From Bacteroidetes bacterium GWF2_33_38 (GTDB lineage Bacteria > Bacteroidota > Bacteroidia > Bacteroidales > GWF2-33-38): a stretch of 43,671 nt of DNA. Of this stretch, positions 30,210 through 40,381 are shown in pieces. The position numbers were made by a program, and so were the translations under genes. Each line of letters begins with the position of its first letter. Position 1 is the first letter of the stretch. Location: NCBI GenBank assembly GCA_001769505.1, contig MEOF01000004.1, positions 1 to 43,671 of the forward strand, in the 5' to 3' direction. A model generated the notes under the pieces. The model made no database searches and was not told the origin of the DNA. It saw only the letters and a program-made list of their open reading frames with translations.

Positions 30210-31418
30210 ATGAGATTTACTGAATTTAATTTACACGACAATTTACTTGAAGCTATTTCATACATGAATTTCGAGAATGCTACCGAAATTCAAGAAAAAG
30301 TAATACCCCTAATTATAAACGGGAAAGACATAATTGCTTGTGCACAAACAGGAACTGGAAAAACGGCAGCTTTTGTTCTTCCAATATTACACAAATTGGC
30401 TGGTAAAAACGAGGATAAAACCAGTACACTTATCATTGTTCCAACTCGCGAACTTGCAATTCAAATCGAACAACAAATTCAAGGTTTTTCATATTTTGTT
30501 TCGGTTAACTCTATTGCAATTTATGGAGGAGGCGACGGAAGTGAATGGCTCGATCAAAAAAATGCCTTAACACAAGGAACAAACATAATTGTTGCAACAC
30601 CAGGAAAATTAATTTCTCATTTGAATATGGGATATGTAAATTTTCAGAATATCGAACATTTAATACTCGACGAAGCAGACAGAATGCTTGATATGGGATT
30701 CTTTGAAGACATTCAAAATATTATTTCGTACATACCCAAAAAGCGACAAACACTAATGTTTAGTGCGACTATGCCTCCCAAAATAAGAACTTTAGCTAAA
30801 AATATTTTAGTCAACCCTATTGAGATTAGTATAGCACTTTCAAAACCAGCTGAAGGCGTTTTACAAGCCGCTTATTTAACCTATGACAATCAAAAAATAC
30901 CGTTAATATTCAGCCTCATCGCAGATAAATCAGAATATAACAGCATTCTAATTTTCAGCTCAACAAAGCGTAAAGTATTTGAAATTTCGCGAACATTGCA
31001 AGGAAAAGGATTTACAGTTGAAGGAATTTCTTCTGATTTAGAGCAAAGCGAAAGAGAAAATGTATTATCACGATTTCGCTCACGCCAAACTAGAGTATTG
31101 GTTGCAACCGATGTTCTAAGTCGTGGAATAGACATAAAAGATATTAATCTTGTTATAAATTTTGATGTCCCCGATGATGCTGAAGATTACGTTCACAGAA
31201 TAGGACGAACAGCCAGAGCGGAAACTACAGGAGTTGCATTGACTTTTATAAATGAGAAAGACATGCAAAAGTTTCAACGTATTGAAAAATTAATCGAAGC
31301 TGAAGTTTACAAACCTAAGTTACCTATAGAAATTGGCGAAGGGCCAAGATGGCAAGTTACCGAAGAACGAAAAAAACGATTCAGTAATAAACGATTTACA
31401 AACAAAAGGAAGTCTTAA
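30210..31418 (+). CDS. DEAD-box RNA helicase
   Basis: A 402-aa RhlE-like helicase. Q motif EIQEKVIP (26-33), motif I AQTGTGKT (45-52), PTRELAIQ, motif II D154-E-A-D157, motif III SAT (185-187), then ATDVLSRGID and HRIGRTARAE. The C-terminal tail beyond the core is short and basic (KKRFSNKRFTNKRKS), as in RNA-binding RhlE/CsdA-type tails. It probably unwinds RNA in ribosome assembly or decay. The stop codon lies 1 bp before the hypA start. A TATCTTCG near 30178 could be a -7 box one base off consensus. Confidence 0.93.
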   Translation: MRFTEFNLHDNLLEAISYMNFENATEIQEKVIPLIINGKDIIACAQTGTGKTAAFVLPILHKLAGKNEDKTSTLIIVPTRELAIQIEQQIQGFSYFVSVNSIAIYGGGDGSEWLDQKNALTQGTNIIVATPGKLISHLNMGYVNFQNIEHLILDEADRMLDMGFFEDIQNIISYIPKKRQTLMFSATMPPKIRTLAKNILVNPIEISIALSKPAEGVLQAAYLTYDNQKIPLIFSLIADKSEYNSILIFSSTKRKVFEISRTLQGKGFTVEGISSDLEQSERENVLSRFRSRQTRVLVATDVLSRGIDIKDINLVINFDVPDDAEDYVHRIGRTARAETTGVALTFINEKDMQKFQRIEKLIEAEVYKPKLPIEIGEGPRWQVTEERKKRFSNKRFTNKRKS

Positions 31419-31419
31419 A

Positions 31420-31767
31420 ATGCACGAATTATCAATTGCACAAAGCATTGTTGAAATTGTTGAAGAAGAAGCTAAAAAACAAAATGCTACTTCAGTTAAT
31501 AAACTCATTCTTGAAATTGGAACTATGTCGGGAATAGTTGTCGAAGCTCTTGAATTTGCAATGGAAGAAGTTATAAAAAACACATGTCTTTCAAATGCAA
31601 AAATCGATATCGAAGAAATTAAAGCTATTGCAGTTTGTGAAATGTGCCAAACGGAATTTGAAACTTTCGATTTGTACTCTCCATGTCCGAAGTGTAATCA
31701 TTTGTATTCTAATATCATAAAGGGAAAAGAATTAAGAATCAAATCAATCGTTATCTTCGGGAAATAA
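31420..31767 (+). CDS. hypA: Hydrogenase/urease nickel insertion protein HypA
   Basis: A 115-aa nickel metallochaperone when started at the ATG at 31420; the longer open frame overlaps the helicase gene. The invariant N-terminal MHELSIAQSIVEIVE supplies the nickel ligand His2. The zinc site has two CxxC pairs, C73-x2-C76 and C89-x2-C92. HypA helps load nickel into [NiFe] hydrogenase (with HypB). No hydrogenase, hypB or other hyp gene is in the window, so it is separated from its usual cluster or serves another nickel enzyme. It is 1 bp behind the DEAD-box helicase, so the two are co-transcribed. Confidence 0.93.
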   Translation: MHELSIAQSIVEIVEEEAKKQNATSVNKLILEIGTMSGIVVEALEFAMEEVIKNTCLSNAKIDIEEIKAIAVCEMCQTEFETFDLYSPCPKCNHLYSNIIKGKELRIKSIVIFGK

Positions 31768-31880: not shown

Positions 31881-33374
31881 TTACTCAAAAATTTTAAATG
31901 CTACAGCAGATAAATATCCAGCTAAAGTAGCAAGTCCAACTACTTTTTGTCCGCCAATATGAACGGCTTCCGGAATCATTGTTTGAGCAATCATAGTTAG
32001 CATTGCACCAGCAGCTAATCCCTCAACTCCAATCATAAGCGTTTCGGGAATTGATGTACTGAAATAAAATCCAAAAACTGCACCAACAGCTGTCATAACC
32101 ATTAATGAAATCCAAAGCATTAATATTTTGAATGTTTTCCAACCCATTTTTTTCATTCCAATGCTGCTCGACATTGCCTCAGGAAAATTTGAAAGAAACA
32201 AGCCTGCAATAAGCGTATATGGAATAACTTCGGTAAGCGATGGATCGACACTAACTAATTTTGTCATTAAAATAATTAAAAATCCTGCTCCTATTACAAA
32301 ACTTTCGGGAATACCATCAAGGAAAATGCCAAGCCAGATTGCCATTGGAGCAGAATTATTTTCTTTTACGGTTTTATCAATCTCTTGTTGTGTCGGCATT
32401 TTATTGGAGTGATGCAATTCATCAATTGCATGATTTGACCACGATTTTGAATCTTCGGTTTCGTGTCCTTCGATAAAGTGTGAAATTTCATCCATTTCTT
32501 TATTTGCGTATTCCTTAACTAATTTTTCAAGTTCGGGAACTTGGCTTCTAATTTTGTCGAAGTCGTCGTTCAATAATTCGAATGCACGAACATTCGTTTT
32601 TGCAATCGCTGTAACATTGCTTGAAATATATTCTAACATTGATATTTCACCTATTATATCTCCAGGTTTTATTACTTTTAAAACTTTCCCGTTTTTAGTT
32701 AGTTCTATTTCACCATGTTCGAGAATATACATTCCTCCAGCAATTTCGCCATCGTTAAAAATAATTTCGCCATGCTTAAAATTTACTATCTTAATATAAT
32801 GAATCAACATATTAATATGTTCCTTCGGAATTTGTCTGAAAAATTCAATTCGCGAAAGCTTTTTCAACATTTTTTTAAATTGTACGAATCGGATATAATT
32901 AATATGAGTAATGGTGGTTGATACTTTTCGAAGATAACCACCTTTAGAGTTAAGCATTTCATTAAGAATATAAAAAAATACTCCGCCAACAACGCACCCA
33001 ATAATCAAAGAAATCATATTATAAAGAGCATGATGATTTTGTGGGGTAACTCCTTCCATATTTCCTTCTTCAACAACCATTTGAACTGTAGGAGCAATTA
33101 ATTCGATGCTCAAAGCTGCAAGTAAGGCTCCGCCACCAAAGGCTGTAAAAATAGCCGTAACTTTAGGACTCGGTTTCCAAATTAGTCCCAATATCGAACC
33201 CAAAGGTAAAGATATCGCACTTAAACCGCCCAGCATTAATGCCCAATAAGCATATTTTACATTATCATGAGCTTTTTCCAGTCCAACCTCAACATTATCG
33301 TTTGTTGCAAATAAAACAAAAGGGAATAAAAATGCTAGCGTGAGCAAAATAAATTTCAAGTTTTGTTTGTGCAT
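31881..33374 (-). CDS. ZIP-type transporter with inserted cyclic-nucleotide-binding-like domain
   Basis: A 497-aa membrane protein. Residues 1-24 look like a signal peptide or extra helix. TM1-TM3 lie at about 42-66, 72-95 and 117-140. Then comes a CNB-like jelly roll (about 175-290: HGEIIFNDGEIAGGMYILEHG, IKPGDIIGEISMLE) and a His-rich linker (298-322, five His). The ZIP core resumes with GIFLDGIPESFVIG (349-362), LFLSNFPEAMSSSIG (392-406) and EGLAAGAMLTMIAQTMIPEA (451-470). So the CNB domain occupies the cytoplasmic TM3-TM4 loop. In the phosphate cassette the Glu is present (G242-E243) but the Arg expected about ten residues on is Ser/Asn. The ZIP metal motif HNIPEG has become LDGIPES. Function as a metal carrier is likely but altered. 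Confidence 0.85.
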   Translation of the reverse strand: MHKQNLKFILLTLAFLFPFVLFATNDNVEVGLEKAHDNVKYAYWALMLGGLSAISLPLGSILGLIWKPSPKVTAIFTAFGGGALLAALSIELIAPTVQMVVEEGNMEGVTPQNHHALYNMISLIIGCVVGGVFFYILNEMLNSKGGYLRKVSTTITHINYIRFVQFKKMLKKLSRIEFFRQIPKEHINMLIHYIKIVNFKHGEIIFNDGEIAGGMYILEHGEIELTKNGKVLKVIKPGDIIGEISMLEYISSNVTAIAKTNVRAFELLNDDFDKIRSQVPELEKLVKEYANKEMDEISHFIEGHETEDSKSWSNHAIDELHHSNKMPTQQEIDKTVKENNSAPMAIWLGIFLDGIPESFVIGAGFLIILMTKLVSVDPSLTEVIPYTLIAGLFLSNFPEAMSSSIGMKKMGWKTFKILMLWISLMVMTAVGAVFGFYFSTSIPETLMIGVEGLAAGAMLTMIAQTMIPEAVHIGGQKVVGLATLAGYLSAVAFKIFE

Positions 33375-39556: not shown

Positions 39557-40381
39557 ATGGAACAATTTCTCCCGGCATGGTTTTTCGAACTTAGCCCTAT
39601 TGGTCAAGCTTTACTGGCAACTACATTTACTTGGTTTATGACAGCACTTGGTGCAGGAGTGGTTTTTTCTTTCAAACAAATTAATCGAAAATTTTTAGAC
39701 GGCATGCTAGGTTTTGCAGCCGGAGTAATGATTGCTGCGAGTTTTTGGTCATTGCTTGCACCGGCAATTGAAATGACCGAGAATGCAGGGAAGCAAGGCT
39801 GGATTCCCGCCTTAGTTGGCTTTTTATCAGGTGGTCTTTTTTTGTGGATAATTGATAAAATATTGCCGCATCTTCACTTAGGTTTACCGACAAGCGAAGC
39901 CGAAGGAATTAAAACAAATTGGCAACGAAGCATTTTATTAGTTTTGGCAATTACGCTTCATAATATTCCCGAAGGTCTTGCCGTTGGAGTTGCCTTTGGA
40001 GCTGTGGGAGCCGATTTACCTTCGGCTTCATTAGCAGGAGCTATTGCTTTGGCAATCGGTATTGGAATACAGAATTTTCCTGAAGGTCTTGCCGTGTCAG
40101 TTCCTTTGCGTCGCGAAGGATTGTCGAGATTTAAAAGTTTTTGGTATGGACAAATGTCTGGTTTAGTAGAAATAGTTGCTGGAGTTATTGGAGCTGTCGC
40201 AGTTACAAGCATGACAGGATTGTTACCTTATGCGTTGTCTTTTGCAGCAGGAGCCATGATTTATGTTGTTGTTGAAGAACTTATTCCTGAATCGCAACAA
40301 GAAAAAAATACCGATATCGCAACCATTGGAGCCATGTTGGGTTTTTCGGTTATGATGACACTAGATGTTGCTTTGGGATAG
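39557..40381 (+). CDS. ZIP family metal transporter
   Basis: A 274-aa inner-membrane carrier of divalent metals, probably zinc and possibly iron or manganese, with eight predicted helices. The metal-site motifs are intact: [15 protein letters not shown] (134-148) in TM4 and [17 protein letters not shown] (172-188) in TM5, plus EELIPES (240-246). A short His-containing loop (PHLHLG, 104-109) lies between TM3 and TM4, where the ZIP paralogue at 31.9-33.4 kb has its CNB insert. Its last 21 bp overlap the 3' end of the convergent GH3 fusion gene. Confidence 0.93.

Follow-up and report, generated by a model that had tools for sequence, protein, structure and literature searches.

A ZIP-fold protein with a cyclic-nucleotide-binding domain between TM3 and TM4 and without the cassette arginine

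In the ZIP protein BbZIP, the loop between transmembrane helices 3 and 4 (TM3 and TM4) is cytoplasmic, TM3 belongs to the scaffold and TM4 to the moving domain, and two histidines of this loop (His149 and His151 of L(3,4)) form a zinc sensor, according to the available part of the structural description (PMC10256678). In SLC9C1, mutation of the arginine in the phosphate-binding cassette of the cyclic-nucleotide-binding (CNB) domain (R1053Q) abolished the effect of cyclic AMP (cAMP), as given in the available part of PMC6052114. Here we analyse a gene from Bacteroidetes bacterium GWF2_33_38 whose product carries a CNB domain between TM3 and TM4 of a ZIP fold. It lies in a stretch of 43,671 nucleotides (contig MEOF01000004.1, positions 1 to 43,671; hereafter the window). 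An original prediction, made from the sequence of the window, had described this architecture and proposed that some other ligand, or the metal itself, gates the protein; the observation is confirmed and the interpretation partly supported by the results below. Genomes and loci are cited by our own numbers (G and L).

Architecture and metal site

The gene is an uninterrupted open frame on the reverse strand, and its parts are as follows.

31881..33374, (-): ZIP-CNB gene, 497 amino acids and stop (open reading frame, Pfam, AlphaFold2 model, structure alignment)
33309..33371, (-): N-terminal hydrophobic helix, residues 2-22 (model)
32946..33281, (-): TM1-TM3 of the ZIP fold, residues about 32-143 (model, BbZIP alignment)
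32856..32924, (-): basic helix leading from TM3 to the CNB domain, residues 151-173 (model)
32487..32846, (-): CNB domain, residues about 177-296 (Pfam match at 197-276, model, 1q3e alignment)
within the CNB domain, (-): jelly roll, residues 194-268, and C-helix, residues 280-296 (model)
32607..32651, (-): phosphate-binding cassette, residues 242-256, GEISMLEYISSNVTA (sequence)
32619-32621, (-): Ser252 in place of the cassette Arg (sequence)
32352..32486, (-): His-rich linker from the CNB domain to TM4, residues 297-341 (sequence)
31887..32351, (-): TM4-TM8 of the ZIP fold, residues about 342-496 (profile, model, BbZIP alignment)
32301..32318, (-): TM4 metal motif DGIPES, residues 353-358 (BbZIP alignment)
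32178..32192, (-): TM5 metal motif SNFPE, residues 395-399 (BbZIP alignment)

Pfam matches the protein with cNMP_binding (PF00027) at residues 197-276 (E = 8.6e-17; 61.3 bits against a curated cut-off of 27.5) and with no other model, Zip falling short. Across 56 aligned family members, Zip matches 44 and cNMP_binding all 56 (E ≤ 0.01), and a profile of the C-terminal half made from 22 family proteins matched BbZIP entries only in the PDB (best E 1e-5). We generated an AlphaFold2 model of the window protein from 56 sequences (mean predicted local distance difference test score 88.1). The model aligns with BbZIP 8ght (Z 24.9, 282 residues, 3.4 Å; VIA-align), all eight top rows being BbZIP, and with the CNB domain of HCN2 (1q3e; Z 18.0, 133 residues, 1.9 Å), the strands lying between residues 194 and 268. 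Pfam, the model and the two alignments thus bear out both the ZIP fold and the jelly roll in its TM3-TM4 loop that had been predicted. As modelled, the window protein is an intact ZIP-fold protein with a folded CNB domain at this position; by fold and sequence homology it belongs to the ZIP family (SLC39), and its predicted function is probably transport of divalent metal. The helix at residues 2-22 may serve as a signal peptide or correspond to the additional helix of the nine-helix BbZIP; the 8ght alignment begins at model residue 1.

In the model, the insert is placed between helix 115-143 (TM3) and helix 342-373 (TM4). The CNB domain (about 120 residues) and the His-rich linker, with five His in residues 297-341, were correctly foreseen, but the whole stretch from TM3 to TM4 is larger than had been described, nearly 200 residues with linkers on either side of the domain. 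Because residues 142-176 are basic (nine Lys or Arg and no Asp or Glu), a cytoplasmic position of the insert fits, the membrane side not being given by the model itself. By analogy with BbZIP, a domain inserted between TM3 and TM4 could couple ligand binding to motion.

The architecture is real and widespread in bacteria. The full protein occurs in three genomes (its own, G001 and G002) among 41 near relatives searched. Across the phylum, 296 genomes were searched, and 8, the window's own among them, have matches to both the ZIP and the CNB part. In one of the eight, G051, the gene appears as two overlapping frames (L023 and L048), through a frameshift or an assembly error. The C-terminal half is matched in 6 of 295 genomes of the class, three with a CNB domain and three without. 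A scan of genome contigs with the single protein yielded 46 stretches, none of them confirmed as a relative; with the family alignment it yielded at least 591 stretches, at least 518 of them confirmed, of which the best 80 were used. As the list is ordered by likeness to the window protein, CNB carriers are favoured in the sample. Among the matches listed are Bacteroidota, Pseudomonadota, Planctomycetota, Latescibacterota, Spirochaetes, Armatimonadetes and others. The 90 proteins analysed comprise the window protein, 79 of the best 80 (L123, whose frame was not placed, is left out) and 10 from the genome searches. Domains were counted with a CNB model made from 20 members with the cassette Arg and the window protein: one CNB domain is present in 79 proteins, two in 4 and none in 7. 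A short loop without a CNB domain is found in L112, L113, L114, L117 and L121. The matches listed from the open-licence literature, a scope outside which most subscription papers lie, include no paper on a ZIP protein with a CNB domain; the architecture may be recorded in databases without having been remarked on.

This distribution also settles whether the frame is a fusion of two genes produced by faulty assembly or a frame error, as the original prediction had allowed. The chance of that is negligible, since 83 of the 90 proteins, from assemblies of many groups, carry the CNB domain at the same place, four of them twice.

Four residues of the metal site, Asp353, Glu357, Asn396 and Glu399, are invariant in all 90 proteins. 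The first two align with His177 and Glu181 of BbZIP and the last two with Asp208 and Glu211 (numbering from the BbZIP profile alignment; the available part of PMC10256678 prints Asp211 where the alignment has Glu). The position of BbZIP Asn178 is Gly in 74 proteins, Val in 8, Ala in 5 and Thr in 3, and that of the release residue, Glu276, holds Glu in none (Thr465 in the window protein). The original prediction had treated LDGIPES in TM4 as an altered motif and a hint of a sensor. The motif is indeed present at 32301-32318, but DGIPES is found in 71 of the 90 proteins; judged by sequence, LDGIPES is the usual TM4 motif of this subfamily and by itself no sign of sensing. GufA/ZupT-type proteins are recognized by HNxPEG in TM4 together with the full M1/M2 set; here His177 is replaced by Asp, Asn178 by Gly and Asp208 by Asn, and we assign the window protein, again by sequence, to the ZIP fold but not to this type. 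Two loci outside the 90, L131 and L132, keep the CNB Arg and have lost the TM4 Glu (LLDCIPGG and LLDVLPAS); they are possible candidates for non-transporting receptors.

Loss of the cassette arginine and of the domain

The cassette of the window protein retains Gly242-Glu243 and has Ser252 at the Arg position, in line with the predicted kept Glu and missing Arg. Across the 87 CNB domains of the family, this position is Arg in 48, His in 24 and another residue in 15, and the cassette Glu is retained in 71. L116, an Arg member, has the RI subunits of protein kinase A (PKA) as its top match; the E value of the whole protein is 3.7e-28, and the alignment includes the cassette. Given the Arg in 48 of 87 domains and the match of L116 to PKA, the common design looks like a metal carrier controlled by cAMP or cyclic GMP (cGMP). 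In the three nearest relatives of the window protein the Arg position is Ala (L050), Ile (L051) and Ala (L052). We looked in this clade for a conserved substitute, such as a CNB domain for a different ligand might have, and found none (Ser, Ala, Ile, Ala). The cassette positions after the Arg site also differ between the window protein and Arg members. In the tree, His at the Arg position is concentrated in clades other than that of the window protein.

The CNB domain of the window protein is 0.35-0.37 identical to those of L050-L052, at a ZIP identity of 0.63-0.67. At equal ZIP divergence, Arg-less CNB domains diverge more than those with Arg in five of five bins (the pairs are not independent); between ZIP identities of 0.55 and 0.65, for example, mean CNB identity is 0.289 for Arg-less and 0.423 for Arg domains. 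Constraint on Arg-less domains is weaker, not absent, as these domains still fold and score well. Four proteins of about 610-650 residues (L027, L118, L122 and L129) have two tandem CNB domains in the same loop, and the cassette Arg is present in one of these eight domains, the first of L129.

In a tree built from the ZIP portion (89 rows, 264 columns), the window protein groups with L050-L052 (support 100/92). The sister of this clade consists of five CNB-less proteins (L112, L113, L114, L117 and L121; nine rows together, 100/98), and these nine rows are nested in a clade of 44 (100/100) of which the remaining 39 all have a CNB domain. The domain was thus lost in the sister clade, which retains a His-rich loop, and the Arg is absent throughout the window clade. 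On the tree, CNB presence requires two changes and the Arg state at least nine. Forcing the seven CNB-less rows together is disfavoured (approximately unbiased test, p-AU 0.005; the group was picked after seeing the tree). The nested loss is better assured than the idea that the insertion arose only once, because the program flagged long branches near the root. The linker holds on average 5.5 His in the window clade (n = 4), 2.2 in Arg types (n = 47) and 3.0 in other Arg-less types with a single CNB domain (n = 28); the CNB-less sisters (n = 5) have 4.6 over 45 residues.

Readings of the inserted domain

We hypothesize, with a probability of roughly 0.5, that the window protein is a carrier with a decayed nucleotide switch. 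It would be a ZIP-fold metal permease of the DGIPES subfamily, with a PKA-like CNB domain in the loop that joins the scaffold (TM3) to the moving helix TM4. In the family at large, the domain probably makes transport dependent on cAMP or cGMP: ligand binding would shift the C-helix and thereby free or hold TM4. With the Arg that would hold the cyclic phosphate lost in the window lineage, the response to cyclic nucleotides is probably gone here. The protein probably still carries divalent metal, its folded CNB domain may persist as a spacer or as a brake in a fixed state, and the remaining control probably acts much as in BbZIP, through metal bound by the His-rich linker. A wider proposal, to which we give slightly less than even odds, is that the family forms a large and hitherto undescribed class of second-messenger-gated metal carriers in which cAMP or cGMP, bound to the PKA-like CNB domain between TM3 and TM4, switches metal flux directly on the carrier. 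The window lineage would then show the dismantling of this switch, Arg first and then the domain, after which metal feedback would rely on the His-rich loop that is left.

Several observations weigh against the decayed switch. Glu243 is retained, and the domain scores 61.3 bits and models well; it is therefore not free of constraint and may act. The His richness of the linker may stem from shared ancestry alone, and the feedback site of BbZIP cannot match in detail because Glu276 has no Glu counterpart. Finally, the signal may exist in the cell, since the window genome has five class III cyclase matches.

The well-kept fold and Glu243 would also suit a CNB domain rebuilt for another ligand (a nucleoside, another nucleotide, a metal or a protein partner) that gates transport. 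His at the Arg position in 24 of 87 domains could mean a different chemistry in those other clades, and cyclic nucleotides do not gate a number of CNB channels and PKA orthologues, as stated in the available part of PMC6052114. However, the residue at the Arg position varies within the window clade, the CNB identity between the window protein and L050-L052 is below that expected from their ZIP divergence, and the sister clade has discarded the domain; we regard this explanation as unlikely. Decay fits better than a new ligand, because the Arg is gone from the window clade, the domain is gone from the sister clade and the residue that took the place of the Arg is unconserved. Gating of the jelly roll by a different ligand or by metal, as originally stated, is thus not supported, though a new ligand may still act there; metal feedback through the linker is plausible from its His counts.

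Less probable still is that the domain binds cAMP or cGMP by its remaining contacts and gates transport as before. The jelly roll and Glu243 are there, as are cyclases in the genome, yet the Arg is the main phosphate contact, its replacement in SLC9C1 abolished the cAMP effect (PMC6052114, available part), and the cassette positions that follow deviate from those of Arg members. About as improbable, or slightly more so, is a metal or nucleotide receptor on a ZIP scaffold that carries nothing. The BbZIP site is only partly kept (Asp for His177, Gly for Asn178, Asn for Asp208), and L131 and L132 pair an Arg-type CNB domain with a lost TM4 Glu, but in the window protein the family motif is complete. 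The carrier with a decayed switch is the reading that we favour.

If Arg-type members respond to cyclic nucleotides, bacteria would possess a direct post-translational coupling between a second messenger and metal import, through a carrier of known mechanism. The family supplies matched natural sets, in which the Arg is retained or lost and the domain absent or doubled, for the study of how an inserted sensor controls an elevator carrier, and of how such control decays.

Genomic context and known systems

A class III cyclase (PF00211) is matched in 45 of 45 genomes with an Arg-type single CNB domain and in 23 of 30 with a non-Arg one, in three of four with two domains and in one of five with none (L028, L029, L061, L099, L116, L120 and L123 are left out of these counts). 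The association of Arg with cyclase (Fisher p 3.5e-5) is drawn from related rows that include near-duplicates, and our case is therefore not rested on it. Independent pairs do not support the link: of five or six usable pairs, on average between zero and about one agreed with it and none opposed it (median p 1). The window genome, with its five cyclase matches, itself lacks the Arg. No class I cyclase was found in the 12 cyclase-less genomes.

Flanking genes could be assigned at 74 of 80 loci. In the near-identical Arg-type loci L088, L089 and L091, a class III cyclase with a HAMP domain lies directly upstream on the same strand (Pfam on L091 only), and L086 has a relative of the L091-type cyclase four genes up. 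Upstream of the Arg-type L077, at a distance of 18 bases, is a DUF3095 gene, which we take to be akin to cyclases. An ion-channel gene is at position -1 in eight loci (Pfam on L109 and L070). Of eight Burkholderiales-type loci, in which His occupies the Arg position, six are flanked by ion-channel genes on the upstream side and by UreD on the downstream side (L096, L098, L100, L103, L104 and L109); in L109, the only one of the six run through Pfam, positions -1, -2 and -3 are all Ion_trans. L103, labelled Rickettsia typhi, groups with Burkholderiales members and is probably from a misnamed bin. UreD adjoins Burkholderiales members only. These cyclase and ion-channel neighbourhoods, few of them independent, would suit roles in signalling and ion balance. 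Adjacent to the window gene and convergent with it is a gene for the nickel chaperone HypA (31333-31767; TIGR00100, 100.7 bits, cut-off 88.1). We considered reading the metal from such neighbours, but HypA is accounted for by a NiFe-hydrogenase matched in the window genome and the neighbours vary among L050-L052, giving no firm call.

Among known systems, BbZIP (8ght, 5tsa) shares the ZIP fold over model residues 1-497 minus the insert (Z 24.9), the Pro-Glu of TM4 and of TM5, and a regulatory TM3-TM4 loop with His in both. It differs in that its loop is short (residues 146-166; PMC10256678, available part) and without a CNB domain, and in that His177, Asn178, Asp208 and Glu276 are Asp, Gly, Asn and Thr in the window protein. 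The intact ZupT/GufA-type ZIP of the same window (39557-40381; Pfam Zip 1.9e-27), which the original prediction had rightly offered for comparison, is 27% identical in the ZIP part (query residues 326-486), but has a plain loop, HNIPEG and no CNB domain. PKA regulatory subunits and CNB channels (HCN, SthK) have the same CNB fold, and L116 aligns across the whole cassette, whereas the window domain lacks the Arg and is inserted in a carrier. SLC9C1, the sperm Na+/H+ exchanger, likewise joins a CNB domain to a carrier rather than to a channel, and its domain (9ydf) is among the Foldseek matches; unlike the window protein, it belongs to another carrier family and has a voltage sensor, and its CNB domain keeps the Arg and responds to cAMP (PMC6052114, available part).
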